From Acetomicrobium hydrogeniformans ATCC BAA-1850 (GTDB taxonomy: Bacteria > Synergistota > Synergistia > Synergistales > Acetomicrobiaceae), in assembly GCF_000160455.2 (NCBI RefSeq), contig NZ_ACJX03000001.1, positions 372,001 through 436,000 of the forward strand: 64,000 nucleotides of DNA, in the 5' to 3' direction. A program made the translations under genes and the position numbers. The notes under the pieces were generated by a model. It was given only the letters and a program-made list of their open reading frames with translations. It was not told the origin of the DNA and searched no databases. Shown piece by piece: positions 16,364 through 33,774 of the stretch (position 1 is its first letter; every line of letters begins with the position of its first letter).

Positions 16364-17881
16364 ATGTTTGAAACCAATTTTAATGATATTTCTGAGGGAT
16401 TAAAAAAACATTTGCCTGCCTACCTGCCAAGCTGTCGCTGGTTTGCCTCCAAGACTAAAGACATCGCAGAGGTGGATATTTTAGACTGCTTGCCCATGAA
16501 AAGAAATTTAAAGACATACATGCTGATTTTGAGGGTCGTTTTAGACGACGACTCCATCGAGCATTACTCAATGCCCCTTTCTGTTATTGAAAAAACACCC
16601 TCGAAGGAACAAAAAATAGGACTCATTTTTGCTCTAGACAACGGCACACATATAATTGAAGGCATTTTTGACGCTGGCTTCAGGGATGCCTTGTTCGAAA
16701 CATTAATCGGGGGCAAAACTGTCGAGGGGATAAATGGCGTGCTTTCAGGTTTTGTCAATGCCAAAAGTATTTCCCATTTAATCGAACAAGGCAAAAACAT
16801 TTCATCTAAAGTTCTACCGGCGGAACAGAGCAACTCATCCGTCATTTATAATGACAGCTTTTTCTTAAAACTTTACAGAAGGCTCGAAATCGGACCCCAT
16901 CCTGAGGCAGAAATGACGCACTTCTTGTCTGAAGCCGGATTTACTCATGTGCCACCCTTTATTGGCTCCATGAAATATATGCTGAACGAAGAAAAATCCT
17001 GGCGCGAAGTCGCTTTACTTCAAGAGTACGTTAAAAACATAGGCGACGGATGGACATACTTCACTGCAGTACTCAAAAATACAATCAAAGCACTTAAATC
17101 GGCCGATGATGCCGACAAATATTTTTTGTTGCCTTTAAAGGAAGAAATAAATAGGACATATGCAATGGCCTCTTTGCTTGGAAAGCGGACGGCTGAAATG
17201 CATTTGGCCTTATCTTCGGACAGAAAAAACGATAGCTTTACTCCCTTGCCATTCAAAGGAGAAACCCAAAAAGAGGCTTATGCTATAGCACGTTTATGGA
17301 TGAAACAAGCGATGAAGATTTTAAAAGATAACATACAAATGCTTCCCTCTCCAACAGACAAGCTGGCAAGAAATATTATCGACAACGAAAAATTACTTAT
17401 AGACAGATTGAAATATTATTTCACTGCCTCCGGTGGAGAAATTTTAAGGATACATGGCGACTATCATCTGGGACAGCTGCTCTTTACGGGGGATGATTTT
17501 TTCATTATAGATTTTGAAGGGGAGCCGGCAAGAAGCTTAATAGAACGCAGAAAAAAGCAAAGTCCTTTGAAAGACGTCTCGGGAATGATACGTTCTCTTC
17601 ATTACGCTGCCAATTACGCCCTCAAAAGCCTGGCCTGTGACGACGAGGCTTCTTCTTTCTGGGCAAAGATATGGTATGATAATGCATACTCATCATTTTT
17701 GTCTTCTTATCGTCAAGAGGCAATGAATGCTTCCTTTTTGCCCGCTGATGACGAAGAATTTAACGCTACTTTAAAAGCTTTCCTGATGGAAAAGGTTTTT
17801 TATGAAATATGTTACGAATTCAATAATCGCCCTGACTGGGTTTACATTCCCCTCAAGGGAATTGAATCTGTTATAAATTAG
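16364..17881 (+). CDS. mak: Maltokinase
   Basis: About 505 residues from the ATG at 16364. The frame is open for 32 more codons into the end of glgE, but no start there has a ribosome binding site. Even the chosen start is 13 bases from TAGGAG, so it is slightly uncertain. The C-terminal kinase lobe is fully intact: HGDYHLGQ (catalytic D366) and [16 protein letters not shown] (metal-binding D383), followed by [22 protein letters not shown], the maltokinase signature. It phosphorylates maltose with ATP to give alpha-maltose-1-phosphate, the GlgE donor. The intact site contrasts with the mutated maltokinase-like half of TreS in the same operon. Cytoplasmic. Confidence 0.93.
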
Positions 17882-24576: not shown

Positions 24577-25749
24577 ATGGGTATTATGAAGAAATTATCA
24601 ATCCTTGCTCAAGCAGCCAAATACGACAGGGTCTGTGGCAAAGATAGGAAAGGAGCAATAAAAGCAGGGACGAGCAACGACATCAATAATTTCATCTTTT
24701 ATAGCCCCTGCAACGGTGGAGGCTATGTTCCGCTTTTAAAGGTCCTTTTCACTAATATTTGCATTAATGACTGCAAGTACTGCTACAACAGACGCTCAAA
24801 TGATATCGAAAGAGCGATCTTCAAGCCCGCGGAATTGGCCAAATTAACCTATGAACTATATAGGAAGGGCCAAATAAAAGGCCTTTTTTTGAGTTCAGGA
24901 ATCTACAAAAATCCCGATTACACAATGGAACTCATGATCAGTACGGCAAAAATCTTGAGGCGTATATTTGGCTTTGACGGCTATATACACTTAAAGATCA
25001 TACCAGGAACTTCACCAGACCTTATTAAAGTGGCAATGTCATTGGCTACACGGGTTAGTTGCAATATTGAACTTCCGACAGAAGAAAGTTTAAAGCTCTT
25101 AGCCCCTGACAAAACTTCAAGTGATATTATCAGAGCACTTAAATCGGTTAGGTATAACTCTTTAGAACATGATATTAATATATCCACAACAACCCAGCTG
25201 ATCATCGGGGCAACCCCGGAATCCGATGCAACAATCATAAAATTGGCCAATGCATTATATTCTGACAATTTGGCAAAGAGAGTATATTATTCGGCATACA
25301 TTCCGGTAAATCCTGGGGTTTTACCCGACGTAACCAATCCTCCTCTATTGAGAGAACACAGGCTATATCAGGCCGACTGGCTAATTAGATTTTACGGTTT
25401 CAAAGTAGAAGATATTTTTCAGGGAACGGAAAACCTCTCGAACGAAATGGATCCAAAAATGTTATGGGCTTTGAGAAACATGCATTTATTCCCGGTAGAT
25501 ATAAAAAGGGCTCCATATGAAAGCCTCATACTTGTTCCCGGCATAGGCCCAAAAACTGCAAAAAAGATCATAAAAGCCAGGCGCGAAGGTTACCTTGATG
25601 AACAGGGATTAAAGGTACTTGGCACGTCCCTTAAACGAGCCAGAAACTTCATAACGATCGGCGGAAAACCGCTCCCGAAGGAGACTCTTTTACAAAAACG
25701 TCATAAAAAGGCTCCATCTCCTTCTTCAAAACAGCTTGCCTTGTTTTAG
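24577..25749 (+). CDS. Putative DNA modification/repair radical SAM protein with C-terminal HhH motif
   Basis: 390 residues. The radical SAM cluster motif is CINDCKYC (CxxxCxxC, ~residues 64-71). The surrounding LKVLFTNICINDCKYCYNR and GLFLSSGIYKNPDYTMELM match a family usually annotated as putative DNA modification/repair radical SAM protein. Near the C-terminus SLILVPGIGPKTAKKIIKARREG is a helix-hairpin-helix, suggesting DNA contact. In many genomes the partner gene is a UDG-like protein; none is adjacent here. The next genes, 33 bases on, are a THEP1 NTPase and an MBL hydrolase on the same strand. The start has AAGGAG 11 bases upstream. Reaction unknown. Confidence 0.85.
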   Translation: MGIMKKLSILAQAAKYDRVCGKDRKGAIKAGTSNDINNFIFYSPCNGGGYVPLLKVLFTNICINDCKYCYNRRSNDIERAIFKPAELAKLTYELYRKGQIKGLFLSSGIYKNPDYTMELMISTAKILRRIFGFDGYIHLKIIPGTSPDLIKVAMSLATRVSCNIELPTEESLKLLAPDKTSSDIIRALKSVRYNSLEHDINISTTTQLIIGATPESDATIIKLANALYSDNLAKRVYYSAYIPVNPGVLPDVTNPPLLREHRLYQADWLIRFYGFKVEDIFQGTENLSNEMDPKMLWALRNMHLFPVDIKRAPYESLILVPGIGPKTAKKIIKARREGYLDEQGLKVLGTSLKRARNFITIGGKPLPKETLLQKRHKKAPSPSSKQLALF

Positions 25750-27539: not shown

Positions 27540-28733
27540 CTATTTTATTGAAAGATATTTTTGCGGGACCTCAAGTTCGGTCATGCCAAGATATCCTTTT
27601 CCAAAGACATACGTGTCCTGATAAACCATGATGTAATTGGATTTCTCAACTCCCGTACTCATATCAACATAAGGGCTCCCATTCACCTTGATGCCTGGTG
27701 TAATGCCTTTACAGGCATCAATGAAATCATCTATGGTTAATTCTGCCTTTCCTTCTACCACCCTTTTAGCAAGCTCGCCTAAACCAGCTGTAACCACATA
27801 GGGGTGGGAGTAAACCCATGTGCCTAGCCGTCCGCTGGCTCCTTTTTCTATTATCACTGCTTCAATCTTTTTAACTATTGCCGGGAAATCTCCTTTCTCC
27901 GCCGTCAAATCCAGGCCTAGTGCACCGGGATACCCCATAAGCGGAGACGCGTAATCGGGCTCAACGAAATAACCGCCATAATTTACAATCTGCCTTATTA
28001 ACGGCTCGGTCTGGGCATCGTTAGTGCAGAAGAAAGCTGTTTCCTTCCCGTATTTTTCCAGCCATGCAGGAACTTTCTCAAGTATAAACTGTTGCGCACC
28101 GGCTACTCCAACATCGCTAACAGGGTCCGGAGCTGTCTCGAAATGAAAATTAACTCCAATATCCTTGCACACGACCTCCATTATGTTTCGTCTTCTCGAC
28201 AGAAGTTCATAGCTCATGTGCCTGGGGAAGGAAATATGGACAAAATTTTTGGCACCCATTTTTTGTGCTGCCACGGGAAGTAGATAGCCCCTATATATGT
28301 CATTTGGGTTTACGGTCAAATCGGCTACCGACGATATAACGCCCGGGTCTTCCTGGGAATTGCCAGCTAAACATATGATATCCGGCCTTCTTTCTTTAAC
28401 TCTCCTAAAGGCCTCTGTGGTTCCGGGCACAGCAGTACTGGCAATAATTGCTTTCATCATTGGATCGTCCGCCATTCCAACGATTTGGCTTATAGTAGTT
28501 TCCATCTCCTGCATGAAGTTGTCCGGGTATGTGACATGCTTAATCATGCCTCCCTGGGCTTCATTGCCATATATCTCCATCATCTTTTCGGCACCGCGAA
28601 GCTCATCTTCTTGTTGAGAAACTGTCCCAGTCATAATTCCAATATGAAAGGGTGCTTCTGCAAAAGCGAAACCACTACTCATCAAAAAAACAACAGTAGC
28701 TAGCATTACCATAAAACGCACTGCCGACTTCAT
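27540..28733 (-). CDS. DUF3798 family periplasmic solute-binding-like protein
   Basis: 397 residues with a clear signal peptide (MKSAVRFMVMLATVVFLMSS..AFA|EAPF). The mature part starts FHIGIMTGTVSQQEDELRGAEKMM and has the two-lobed layout of a type I periplasmic binding protein (AVPGTTEAFRRVKERRPDIICLAG, FCTNDAQTEPLIRQIVNYGG). It matches DUF3798, a family common in Synergistota. No transporter permease or ATPase is next to it. It lies just downstream of an M24 peptidase gene on the same strand (42 bases), so the two may be co-transcribed. Ligand unknown. Confidence 0.82.
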   Translation of the reverse strand: MKSAVRFMVMLATVVFLMSSGFAFAEAPFHIGIMTGTVSQQEDELRGAEKMMEIYGNEAQGGMIKHVTYPDNFMQEMETTISQIVGMADDPMMKAIIASTAVPGTTEAFRRVKERRPDIICLAGNSQEDPGVISSVADLTVNPNDIYRGYLLPVAAQKMGAKNFVHISFPRHMSYELLSRRRNIMEVVCKDIGVNFHFETAPDPVSDVGVAGAQQFILEKVPAWLEKYGKETAFFCTNDAQTEPLIRQIVNYGGYFVEPDYASPLMGYPGALGLDLTAEKGDFPAIVKKIEAVIIEKGASGRLGTWVYSHPYVVTAGLGELAKRVVEGKAELTIDDFIDACKGITPGIKVNGSPYVDMSTGVEKSNYIMVYQDTYVFGKGYLGMTELEVPQKYLSIK

Positions 28734-29876: not shown

Positions 29877-30062
29877 CGATTAATGACCTCTTTTCTAAGA
29901 ATTTTGCAATTAATGTCACAAAATGCCTTTCAAAGGATAACAAGGGGTTGGATTATAGGCAAGAAAAACTTTATACTAGTTACAGAGAATAGAGAGCAGC
30001 CTCAAGTGCCTGTTGATAATCAGCAGGCTACAAAATTTTTTATTGTTGAGGTGAAATGGCTC

Positions 30063-31988
30063 ATGACATTCGGAAAATTATGGTTAGAAAGCGTCATAGG
30101 CGTCGCTGTTTTGGAATTAGTGTTGCTTTTCCTGCCCTTTTCCAAAGTCATAGCAACCATAACCACAATAGCCGGCACCGCCGTTATTTTGTTCCTATTA
30201 TTTAAATTTCATAGCAAAAAGGATACCCCTTTAAGCACAGACAAACCAATGTTGCCGGCAACAACACGACAATCCTCTCGGGCAACAGATCAACAAAAAT
30301 CGAGTTTAGATGAAAAAGTTCACGATAATCTCTTTTCCGTAACAGAAACTATGGGATTTGATACACAGCAAGTTTCCTGGCTGTCGAAGGACACGATCAA
30401 AACCTTTGAACAGATCTCGAAGATCTTTGCCGAAATAGAGGAAGGCAGCCATCAAAATGCTGCTAGCACTCAGGAAATAACTGCCAGTATCAATGAGCTC
30501 TCAAATATATCTGCGAAGATGCGAAACGATATTTTAGGCATAGAAAATAACGCATCGGAAGCCACAAACATGTTACAACACAACAAAGATTCCTTGGAAA
30601 GTTTATCCCCTCTTTTAAACGAACTCATAACCTCTATTAAAAGCGCCTCCGATGATAACTTGAAGCTAGAGGAATCTTCAAAGAAGATCTACAAGATAGT
30701 AGAATATATTAATTCAATAGCTAAACAGACAAACCTCTTGGCACTCAATGCCTCTATAGAAGCGGCCAGAGCAGGCTCGGCTGGTAAGGGATTTTCTGTA
30801 GTATCATTAGAAATCAAAAAACTTGCCGACGAAACCAAAGAGTCCATCTCAGAAATTACTCCCATCATTAGTGAAATAAGCAACCGCGTATCAGCGTCAA
30901 ATAAAGCTATGGAATACTGTATAAACAAGCTTAAAGACGTAGAAACGGCTTCAGCCTCTTCAATTGAAATCATCTCCAAAATAGAACATTCCGTCAACAT
31001 GATTAAAAAAGCTTTAACCGACCTCACAGATATGTCATCTACGCAAATGAATGTGGTTTCGGAAATAGAAACAGCTTCCAATGCCATAGCAAAATCCGTG
31101 GAGGAAACATATAACACCGTAGTCAAGCTATCTAAGGATATCGAGATTCAAAAAGAAAAAAACGTGCAGCTGGCGCAGTTTAGCGACAAATTATCAGATA
31201 CCGCTTTAAACCTTCAAACCATCATGACAAAACTCAAAACCAATAAAGAAATAATATTTGGCGTAAATCCCTTTACCTCTCCAGATAACATAAGGCAAAT
31301 GTACGTTCCAATTCTCGAAAGGCTGTGCAACAATCTTGGGTACAAAGTCAGAACAATTATTGTCAAAGATTACGATGCTTTGATAGAGGCTATGGCAAAA
31401 AACATTATTGACATCGGATGGTTTTCGCCCTTTGCATATGTAACGGCACGGAAGAAAATTGGAATTAAACCTATAGCTACTCCAATGGTAAACGGAAAAG
31501 CTTCATATAAAGGCTACATAATTGCAAAAGCCTCCGGCGACATAAAATCATTGGAAGATTTGAAAGGCAAACACTTCGGTTACGTAGATCCAAAAAGTGC
31601 ATCCGGCTATCTTTATGCAAGACACATATTAAAATCCCATGGCCTCGACCCCGATAAACTTTTTGGCAAAGTTTCTTTTATGGGAACACATGACACTGTC
31701 ATTAAAGCCGTATTAAACGGTGAAATTGATGCCGGTGCGACCTTTAATGAAGCTATAGATTTAGCAAAGTCAAGAGGACTAAACATAAACGCACTGAGAA
31801 TAATAGCAGAAACTGAGGATATTCCAAAGGATGCTTTAGCTTGCAATCCAAACATGTCGGAGGAAATGATATCCTTATTACAAAAAGCCTTCATCGAATT
31901 TAAAGATTTCCAGGGCCTAAAAACCAACGTCAATGGATTTATAGCAAGCGACGATAAAAGATACGACGTGATAAGAGCTATTATGTAA
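30063..31988 (+). CDS. Chemoreceptor-like signalling protein with C-terminal PhnD-like binding domain
   Basis: 641 residues from ATG 30063 (GAGGTGA 8 bases upstream); the frame is open 60 codons further without a good site. Two closely spaced hydrophobic segments (~10-27 and ~30-52) form a membrane hairpin with almost no periplasmic loop and no HAMP. An MCP signalling domain follows (~100-395) with the hairpin-tip core [18 protein letters not shown] and [18 protein letters not shown]. The last ~235 residues are a PhnD-type phosphonate/phosphite-binding fold ([72 protein letters not shown]). With this topology the binding domain would be cytoplasmic. Predicted role: sensing an intracellular phosphonate-like or other anion and signalling to CheA/CheW. 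Unusual architecture; monocistronic. Confidence 0.85.
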
Positions 31989-32022: not shown

Positions 32023-32811
32023 TTAACCATATAACACCAGTTGGGCTCTGTCGTTGAAAAAGGTCTTACTGCCCCAAACGACTAATATAAACACGGTAAA
32101 AGCAACGCTTGCCAGTATGGCAAACATGATTGCCATTTGATATTTAATCGCAGTAACGGCGGGAACACCCGATAGGATTTGCCCCGACATCATTCCCGGC
32201 AAAAAGACGATGCCCATTCCAACCATAGAATTGATCGTGGGCAGTATGGCCGCCGTGAAGGATTCGTTAACAATTTCTCTAGAGGCTCTTTCGGGAGTTG
32301 CTCCAAGCATGAGCGCTCCCTCTATTAGTTCCTTTTTATCATGAAACCCCCTAAGCAGGCGCTCTGCTCCCAAGGTGATGCCCGTCATCGAATTGCCAAT
32401 CAGCATTCCAGACAGCGGTATTACATATCTGGGCGAATACCAGGGCTTTACAGATAGAAGGACAAAAAAGAAAAATATCATAGTAATTATAGTACCAAAA
32501 GCCATACTGCAAGCTATTATACTGCGAAAACGCGGCGTCATATCGATTTTGACCCTTTGATAGATGTTTTGTACAGCAAAAGCCTCCATGATAGCCACAG
32601 CTGCCAGAGTCATCCACATCCTCTGAGAACCCAATATATAATCCAAAATGTAGCCCACAAGCACTAATTGGATGGTCATCCTCATAACGGCAATTAAAAG
32701 CTCGGTTTCTTTTTTTATGTAGCGTTGTCTGAGCATAACAAGGACAACAAGAATCAAAGCATATCCTGCCAATAAATTAAAAAACCCTATATCGACTACT
32801 CCCATCATCAT
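32023..32811 (-). CDS. fetB: FetB/YbbM-type ABC transporter permease (UPF0014)
   Basis: 262 residues from the ATG at 32811, 8 bases after GAGGAGGG. The open frame extends into the ATPase gene but those codons belong to the other frame. About seven membrane segments. The family core is visible: VIPLSGMLIGNSMTGITLGAERLLRGF, EGALMLGATPERASREIVNESFTAAILPTINSMVGMGIVFLPGMMSGQILSG. In E. coli the FetAB pair is linked to iron export and oxidative-stress resistance; here the substrate is inferred only from family. It starts one base after the ATPase stop, so the two are translationally coupled. Confidence 0.85.
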   Translation of the reverse strand: MMMGVVDIGFFNLLAGYALILVVLVMLRQRYIKKETELLIAVMRMTIQLVLVGYILDYILGSQRMWMTLAAVAIMEAFAVQNIYQRVKIDMTPRFRSIIACSMAFGTIITMIFFFFVLLSVKPWYSPRYVIPLSGMLIGNSMTGITLGAERLLRGFHDKKELIEGALMLGATPERASREIVNESFTAAILPTINSMVGMGIVFLPGMMSGQILSGVPAVTAIKYQMAIMFAILASVAFTVFILVVWGSKTFFNDRAQLVLYG

Positions 32812-32812
32812 T

Positions 32813-33454
32813 TTATAAGCCCTCCTCTGCCACAACTCCGCCGCCTTGTATTGTAACTGCAACATCGGCAAAACGTTGGGCAATACTTTTAGAATGCACA
32901 ACCATTATCAAAGTTCTTGTCTTCCCCTTTGCGAACTCCACAACGCTTTCGATGACCCTTTCCTCCGTCCCCTCATCAAGAGCGGATGTGGGTTCGTCCA
33001 GCAATATGACCTCTGGTTCTAAAAGCATTATTCTAGCCAATGCCAGGCGCTGTTTTTCTCCGCCAGAAAGAGTTGAAGCAATAGTCGAAAGAGGTTTATC
33101 CAGCTGTGCCAACCTCAGGATTTCGGATAAAACATCGTCTCTTACTTTGTCTTTTTCTGCAAATTCAAGCCCTATTAAAAGATTATCCTTCACGCTTCCG
33201 GAAAAAACAGTAGGATTTTGAGGAAGCATTACCACTTCCCTGCGAAGCTGGATTGGATCTATGTCTTCAATGTTACGACCTTTATAAAATATCGAACCTT
33301 CATCAGGAGAAATCAGATTATTAAGAAGACGCAACAGCGTTGTCTTTCCGCTTCCGCTTTCACCTATTATGCAAGTTATTTTAGCCTCGGGTATTTGTAA
33401 TTTGTCGATTTTTAAAATGTCTTTATATTGGACTTGTTCCAATTGAAAAGCCAT
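32813..33454 (-). CDS. fetA: ABC transporter ATP-binding protein, FetA-like
   Basis: 213 residues with a complete ATPase core: Walker A GESGSGKTTL (~33-42), Q-loop MLPQNPTVFSGSV, signature LSGGEKQRLALARIM, Walker B VILLDEPTSALDE and an H-loop His in MVVHSK. It works with the FetB-like permease encoded directly downstream. AAGGAAG lies 8 bases before the ATG. A PadR-family regulator gene lies 26 bases upstream on the same strand. The short length is normal for FetA. Confidence 0.88.
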   Translation of the reverse strand: MAFQLEQVQYKDILKIDKLQIPEAKITCIIGESGSGKTTLLRLLNNLISPDEGSIFYKGRNIEDIDPIQLRREVVMLPQNPTVFSGSVKDNLLIGLEFAEKDKVRDDVLSEILRLAQLDKPLSTIASTLSGGEKQRLALARIMLLEPEVILLDEPTSALDEGTEERVIESVVEFAKGKTRTLIMVVHSKSIAQRFADVAVTIQGGGVVAEEGL

Positions 33455-33480: not shown

Positions 33481-33774
33481 TTAAAGCACTTCTTCGACCA
33501 ATTCACGAAGTTTACCTATTGCTTGATTCAACACATCTGATCCTTTCTCGGTTATCGTATAGTATTTTCTCACTTTGCCGTTCACCACTTTAGATTCGCA
33601 TCTTAAATATCCATCCCTTGTCATCAAATGTAGCGTTGGATAAATCGTGCCAGGACTAAACCGATATCCGTGTCGTTCGAGCTCCTCGATTACCCATAAC
33701 CCATAGATAGGTCCCTTGCTAGCGTGATGAAGAATGTGAATTTTTACAAACCCCAAAAAAAGGCTACGAAGCAT
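33481..33774 (-). CDS. PadR family transcriptional regulator
   Basis: 97 residues. Typical PadR winged helix: LFLGFVKIHILHHASKGPIYGLWVIEELERHGYRFSPGTIYPTLHLMTRDGYLRCES, then GKVRKYYTITEKGSDVLNQA. It has only the DNA-binding core and the first dimerisation helix. First gene of the padR-fetA-fetB run, so it probably controls that exporter and itself. GGAGG lies 9 bases before the ATG, and a dyad operator candidate lies just upstream. Confidence 0.9.
   Translation of the reverse strand: MLRSLFLGFVKIHILHHASKGPIYGLWVIEELERHGYRFSPGTIYPTLHLMTRDGYLRCESKVVNGKVRKYYTITEKGSDVLNQAIGKLRELVEEVL

Follow-up and report, generated by a model that had tools for sequence, protein, structure and literature searches.

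The locus raises the question of what is sensed, and on which side of the membrane, by a chemoreceptor that carries a transport-type binding fold behind its signalling core. The gene lies, as an original prediction made from the letters alone had it, at 30063-31988 on the + strand of a 64,000-nucleotide stretch of the Acetomicrobium hydrogeniformans ATCC BAA-1850 genome (hereafter, the window); it encodes 641 residues (ORF and Pfam). The best explanation, to which we assign a probability of roughly 55%, is that the receptor senses a C3 phosphate in the cytoplasm, most likely glycerol-3-phosphate (G3P) or DHAP, made from glycerol or triose catabolism.

A GAGGTG upstream of 30063 fits a start at this position, and in the G004 orthologue an in-frame stop just upstream of the matching point supports the same start; the alternative in-frame start at 29883, which gives a longer ORF, has no counterpart in this orthologue. 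The Pfam search revealed two stretches of MCPsignal (PF00015; residues 199-344, E 5.5e-33) and, behind them, Phosphonate-bd (PF12974) over residues 399-634 (E 9.7e-67), the latter match covering the profile at full length (1-242 of 242). The predicted order of an MCP core and a PhnD-type fold is thus borne out, as is the predicted lack of HAMP, for which the window protein has no Pfam match at E<=1. In NCBIfam, the protein scores above the cut-off of TIGR01098, the phosphate/phosphite/phosphonate binding-protein subfamily (201.7 bits; cut-off 112.05), and below the curated cut-off of the PhnD equivalog TIGR03431 (170.6 bits; cut-off 261.1). The selenate family score is also under its cut-off, and none of the 25 NCBIfam families listed spans both MCP and PhnD. 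A chance join or a frame error can be rejected because a protein of 72% identity occurs in a second species of the genus, and because the same architecture is met repeatedly within the phylum and outside it.

The protein has exactly two hydrophobic segments, at about residues 6-24 and 29-47 (Kyte-Doolittle 2.28 and 2.40), forming a two-helix membrane hairpin (30078-30203, + strand). The loop between them has four residues, and the earlier statement that no room is left for an outside sensor stands. The KFHSKKD charges after helix 2 suggest that the C-terminus is inside. A low-complexity linker separates the membrane hairpin from the coiled coil. The coiled-coil N-terminal cap ([16 protein letters not shown], residues 89-118; 30327-30416, + strand), in which E95 and Q103 are invariant in a 13-row alignment, takes HAMP's usual place. 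The MCP signalling coiled coil (residues 90-397; 30330-31253, + strand) matches Tm1143 (2ch7) with a phmmer E of 5e-21. Its hairpin tip ([11 protein letters not shown]; 30744-30776, + strand), located by alignment, is the CheA/CheW contact region of MCPs and is present in 36 of 36 aligned members of the family. The original prediction of no usual adaptation layout holds only in part: the C-terminal CheR/CheB pentapeptide is absent from the window protein, but a motif search located a consensus methylation site in the N-helix ([10 protein letters not shown], residues 133-142; 30459-30488, + strand). The strict motif occupies this position in 11 of 36 members, and the soluble members from dha operons are without it. 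The PhnD/PtxB-type two-lobed ligand-binding domain (PF12974; PtxB 5o2j, E 3.6e-29) occupies residues 399-634 (31257-31964, + strand).

The search for the same architecture, which had been proposed, was run and gave 38 loci with fused MCP:PhnD genes, in Synergistota and one Bacillota phylum. For Synergistota, the search covered 61 relatives first and afterwards a set of 185 genomes from the phylum, G000 being in both sets; the fused gene was found in 15 genomes, a remnant in two more, and separate shorter binding proteins in others. In the Bacillota phylum of a Cellulosilyticum genome, 15 of 299 genomes contain a match between 1e-86 and 1e-108, in frames of 579-672 residues, with binding proteins set clearly apart at 1e-58 and weaker. 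In the class of one Bacillota carrier, G459, 14 of 26 genomes have the fused gene, eight of these being new loci. The presence of both MCP and PhnD was verified by Pfam in nine relatives. L164 and L167 are fused genes; the 516-residue frame of L168 (G368) was rejected as a fusion and is a lone binding protein. A scan of genome contigs returned only an ordinary MCP (L004) and no fused gene. In viral contigs, the full-length profile gave matches to the MCP part only among the best 80 of 167, and the PhnD profile gave no match. The PhnD domain is matched by 1112 plasmid records, all below 60% identity; among the 25 of these matches listed, identity does not exceed 35.1%, and wherever a feature is named, it is an ABC binding protein.

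L052, whose protein is identical to that of L051, was left out of the alignments and the tree, while L056, a broken assembly with X letters, was left out of the alignments and the spacing and anchor counts and kept in the tree. In the tree, the PhnD domains of 37 fused genes group in a single clade apart from the 22 binding proteins included (support 95/89, and 96% of 200 bootstrap trees), and by this phylogeny they are of one origin. The window protein and its G004 orthologue are nested in the Bacillota group with two-helix anchors, with L153 as the sister (99/96). Given this nesting, the window gene was probably acquired from Bacillota. One radical-SAM family (24577-25749 in the window; L153:2286-3419) neighbours the receptor gene not only here but also in G004 and in G230, a relative from Bacillota; this common neighbour is a trace of shared transfer.

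The original prediction placed the C-terminus in the cytoplasm, and the relatives of the protein agree. The PhnD domain is almost certainly cytoplasmic, because 26 of 36 judged members have neither a membrane segment nor an export signal, and because the MCP core meets CheA in the cytoplasm with no further membrane segment before PhnD. One hydrophobic segment is found in four of the members and two in six, and the anchored/unanchored label switches four times on the tree. From the topology of the relatives, the two-helix hairpin therefore serves the window protein as a membrane anchor and does not belong to the sensor.

When comparing the members of the family, a constant spacing can be noted. 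The hairpin tip is separated from the first PhnD strand by 170 residues in 34 of 36 members (in L198, one of the 34, counted by eye) and by 163 residues, one heptad less, in L155 and L157. In the latter two, the N-terminal cap is likewise seven residues closer to the tip; in most family members, it keeps a constant distance from it. MCP bundles change length by seven-residue steps in both helices. The constant spacing and the paired heptad step thus make the PhnD domain appear locked in register to the coiled coil, and at the level of sequence this implies a rigid coupling of the two. The PhnD domain sits at the membrane-proximal end of the bundle, at the level that HAMP has in ordinary receptors. 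A single-sequence AlphaFold2 model of this domain was set aside (pLDDT 38).

For the ligand pocket, the phosphoryl contacts of E. coli PhnD are taken to be Y47, Y93, S127, S129 and H157. Alignment with E. coli PhnD (L060) gave the expected letters at these positions, which correspond to Y437, Y482, S512, S514 and H543 of the window protein. The predicted phosphoryl contacts Tyr437 (31371-31373) and Tyr482 (31506-31508), both serines of Ser512-Ala513-Ser514 (31596-31604), which form the S-x-S of the STS-H phosphoryl motif, and His543 (31689-31691), the H of this motif, all on the + strand, are present in 37 of 37 fused domains. The original prediction had named loss of ligand-binding residues as its refutation; when this was checked, the pocket residues proved to be kept throughout. 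The cap has two acids: Glu563 (31749-31751, + strand; E. coli PhnD E177), which is E in 27 and D in 10 of the 37 domains, and Asp590 in IPKDA (31830-31832, + strand; E. coli PhnD D205, Tyr in PtxB), which is D in all 37. K589 is found in 36 of 37 fused domains versus one of 22 binding proteins. The ligand is accordingly predicted to have a phosphate or phosphonate head and a polar tail larger than hydrogen, and so not to be phosphite. By itself, the pocket sequence does not favour a hydroxylated over an amino tail, or the reverse.

The gene neighbourhoods of the relatives were compared by neighbour clustering over 30 loci, with the representatives named with NCBIfam and Pfam. A recurrent Bacillota operon consists of glpK, a G3P oxidase/GlpA-like gene, an FAD oxidoreductase, DUF1667, an HPr-sigma54 activator, MCP:PhnD, dhaK, dhaL and dhaM; an aquaporin or a DUF6905 pair lies upstream of glpK in many of the operons where that part was read, and in L162 and L163 there is no sigma-54 gene before the receptor. 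A glycerol or glycerol/DHA operon holds the receptor gene at 15 of 23 Bacillota loci, which are not 15 independent events, L159 and L160 being near-identical. Six of the first 15 Bacillota loci are in a glycerol/DHA operon and L155 belongs to a glycerol operon that includes glpP, while the eight loci newly found in the class of G459 all (8/8) sit in a glycerol/DHA operon. The receptor gene adjoins glpP in L154, and in L157 it directly follows the genes of pyruvate kinase, GAPDH, PGK, TPI and enolase. The remaining six of 23 (L153, on a 6-kb contig, L156, L158, L164, L166 and L167) have no glycerol or glycolysis neighbours. In the class of G459, 12 of the 14 genomes with a fusion have dhaK directly next to it, and six genomes have dhaK without the fused gene. 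As a control, the five readable sister operons were inspected; in five of five, it is the same operon, and no MCP separates the sigma-54 gene from dhaK (the contig of the sixth sister genome is too short for the operon to be read); the receptor is therefore a plug-in of the operon.

Several genes of these loci can be mentioned in their own right. The sigma-54 activator just before the receptor gene in L159 (L159:10325-12007) has an N-terminal PTS HPr domain. The pyk, gap, pgk, tpi and eno genes of L157 (L157:26-9385) form a lower-glycolysis operon followed by the receptor gene. Small DUF6905 (PF21846) pairs precede glpK where the aquaporin is missing (L159:16885-17223 and 17253-17681; L162:2139-2860), and such a pair is a candidate glycerol facilitator.

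In Synergistota, glp or dha genes beside the receptor were found at none of 15 loci, the window's included, three of the contigs being short. The genome of the window has a GlpP-DhaK-DhaL-DhaM-GlpK-G3P-oxidase operon without the receptor gene inside, as well as three CheW-domain genes, one of them in a 685-residue, CheA-sized frame. DhaK is present in 12 of 15 fused Synergistota genomes versus 85 of 170 others, and GlpK in 11 of 15 versus 78 of 170. Fisher tests, weak and free of phylogeny, gave p 0.031 for DhaK and p 0.058 for GlpK in Synergistota, and p 0.026 for DhaK in the class of G459; these values are not taken as proof. The co-occurrence of the receptor with DhaK and GlpK in Synergistota is only suggestive. 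The 99% complete genome G062 has the receptor and neither DhaK nor GlpK.

In the window, the receptor gene stands alone between one divergent and one convergent gene. Its neighbours (M24 peptidase, DUF3798, UPF0014 with ATPase, PadR) were considered as a hint to the ligand and rejected, as they suggest nothing. Features of an ABC binding protein are missing: the domain has no export signal, and the M24 peptidase and UPF0014/ABC neighbours lie on the other strand. The overlapping UPF0014 permease and ABC ATPase genes (32023-33454, minus strand) are FetAB-like and are adjoined by the PadR regulator (33481-33774). The DUF3798 protein (27540-28733) has an export-signal-like start, and two such genes lie near the receptor at the G004 locus. 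According to blastn of the flanks, the stretch 30101-31824 is absent from G066, of the same species, and from G003, of the same genus. The 1.7-kb deletion has the same end points in both (G066:C4 and G003:C24; L059, L015), and its ends carry the short imperfect matching letters CATAGG/CAAAGG. The receptor is therefore dispensable.

A C3 phosphate is the preferred ligand because the genes of the relatives sit in glycerol/DHA operons and the phosphoryl pocket is invariant. Glycerol or dihydroxyacetone would enter the cell and be phosphorylated; the C3 phosphate would then make the two lobes of the PhnD domain close where the MCP bundle has its base, and this closure would be transmitted directly to the C-helix of the four-helix bundle, altering CheA activity. 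Swimming would in this way be steered by what the cell actually metabolises. The ligand and the sign of the response are what we infer, as is the sharing of a ligand between the window copy and its operon-linked relatives. Several points weaken the choice of G3P or DHAP. GpxB, a PhnT-family protein that binds G1P/G3P with a Kd of 1-2.5 uM, contacts the glycerol hydroxyls by Arg/Thr, according to the available part of PMC12718374; these tail contacts, Arg223/Thr247, are absent from the fused family, and the equated positions carry an acid and Asp. In E. coli PhnD, it is this acid pair that contacts the amine of 2-aminoethylphosphonate (2-AEP). No Synergistota locus adjoins glp/dha, DhaK is lacking in 3 of 15 fused genomes and GlpK in 4 of 15, and 6 of 23 Bacillota loci are without such neighbours.

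The same receptor and topology might instead serve a cytoplasmic amino-phosphonate or amino-phosphate, for example, 2-AEP or phosphoethanolamine. The cap acids E/D563 and D590 match E177/D205 of E. coli PhnD, the amine contacts of 2-AEP as given in the accessible portions of PMC5700983 and PMC12718374, and the PhnD domain is the first profile match. However, the genome of the window has no strong PhnD-type importer (its other PF12974 matches score a weak 21.9 and 19.3 bits), the neighbour clusters of the 30 loci showed no recognisable phn gene next to the fusions, and the Bacillota genes are linked to the glycerol/DHA operon, which together make such a ligand unlikely.

Another central metabolite of the same operons, for example, phosphoenolpyruvate (PEP), could report the phosphoryl supply of the PTS and DHA kinase. 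DhaM uses PEP, the operon regulator bears an HPr domain, enolase directly precedes the receptor gene in L157, and pyruvate kinase is present in L155 and L157. Nevertheless, the two invariant cap acids would be unfriendly to a carboxylate, and L154, L155 and L163 instead have GlpP, an antiterminator that responds to G3P; we regard PEP as improbable.

The ligand named in the original prediction, phosphonate or phosphite, is not supported by the comparison, and a cytoplasmic sensor of phosphite, phosphonate or an inorganic anion is very doubtful. The nearest solved relatives are indeed the phosphite binders PtxB, and the STS-H motif is described together with a phosphite-specific Tyr cap in PMC5700983, as far as its available text goes. 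However, this capping Tyr (Te_PtxB Y208) is absent, Asp590 standing in its place in 37 of 37 fused domains; a strong importer is lacking, and the neighbourhoods of the relatives point to glycerol and triose phosphates. Hardly any weight can be given to a PhnD domain that binds no small molecule and acts as a dimer or protein-docking module, which would agree with its constant spacing to the coiled coil but not with invariant pocket residues in a domain whose mean column identity is 63% versus 48% for the whole chain.

Returning to the C3-phosphate reading, its broadest form would be that a binding protein of the transport type was relocated to the cytoplasm and wired, heptad for heptad, to an MCP, giving a dedicated intracellular receptor for glycolytic C3 phosphates whose gene is plugged in between the HPr-sigma54 regulator and dhaK; the chances for and against this seem to us evenly balanced. 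If true, this would explain directly, in molecular terms, how sensing works in metabolism-dependent chemotaxis. Metabolism-based steering has so far mostly been explained by indirect inputs, such as redox and the PTS; with a receptor for one named intermediate of the cytoplasm, encoded in the operon that makes this intermediate, the question would become directly testable. It would also be a ready fusion for studying how the hinge of a binding protein drives an MCP from its C-terminal end.

In the literature, supplements being beyond reach, no paper was found on an MCP with PhnD/PF12974 or on a dedicated glycerol receptor. Chemoreceptors with a C-terminal ligand-binding domain (LBD) are known as a subfamily that is poorly characterised and comprises at least 17 types of domain, according to the part of PMC7390727 available, and PhnD may be among its 17 types. 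Like the window protein, these receptors, for example, MCP-CZB, have a cytoplasmic sensor domain after the MCP core; unlike the MCP-CZB type, the window protein has a complete, rigidly spaced two-lobed binding protein of the transport type and operon evidence for a C3 phosphate. With PtxB, HtxB, PhnD and GpxB of the PhnT family, the fused domains share the fold, the STS-H-type phosphoryl motif and both Tyr contacts, whereas they have no signal peptide, are carried on an MCP and form a separate clade; the cap has the acidic pair and Lys589 in the fused family, Tyr in PtxB and Arg/Thr in GpxB. Tm1143, a soluble Thermotoga MCP signalling domain, has the same coiled coil and hairpin tip, while its structure is without a PhnD domain. 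GlpP (PF04309) is likewise a cytoplasmic G3P-responsive regulator in the same operons; however, it controls transcription, whereas the receptor of the window would control motility. In E. coli, chemotaxis to glycerol needs GlpK and runs via the PTS (PMC4996493, in its accessible part), so that there, too, the sensing is internal and concerns phosphorylated glycerol or what is made from it; in that account the signal is carried by the PTS with no dedicated receptor, whereas the system of the window is proposed to be a dedicated one. The class of receptors with a C-terminal LBD is thus known, and what is added to it here is a binding fold of the transport type placed in the cytoplasm, the rigid coupling of this fold by heptads and the operon-based assignment of the ligand.
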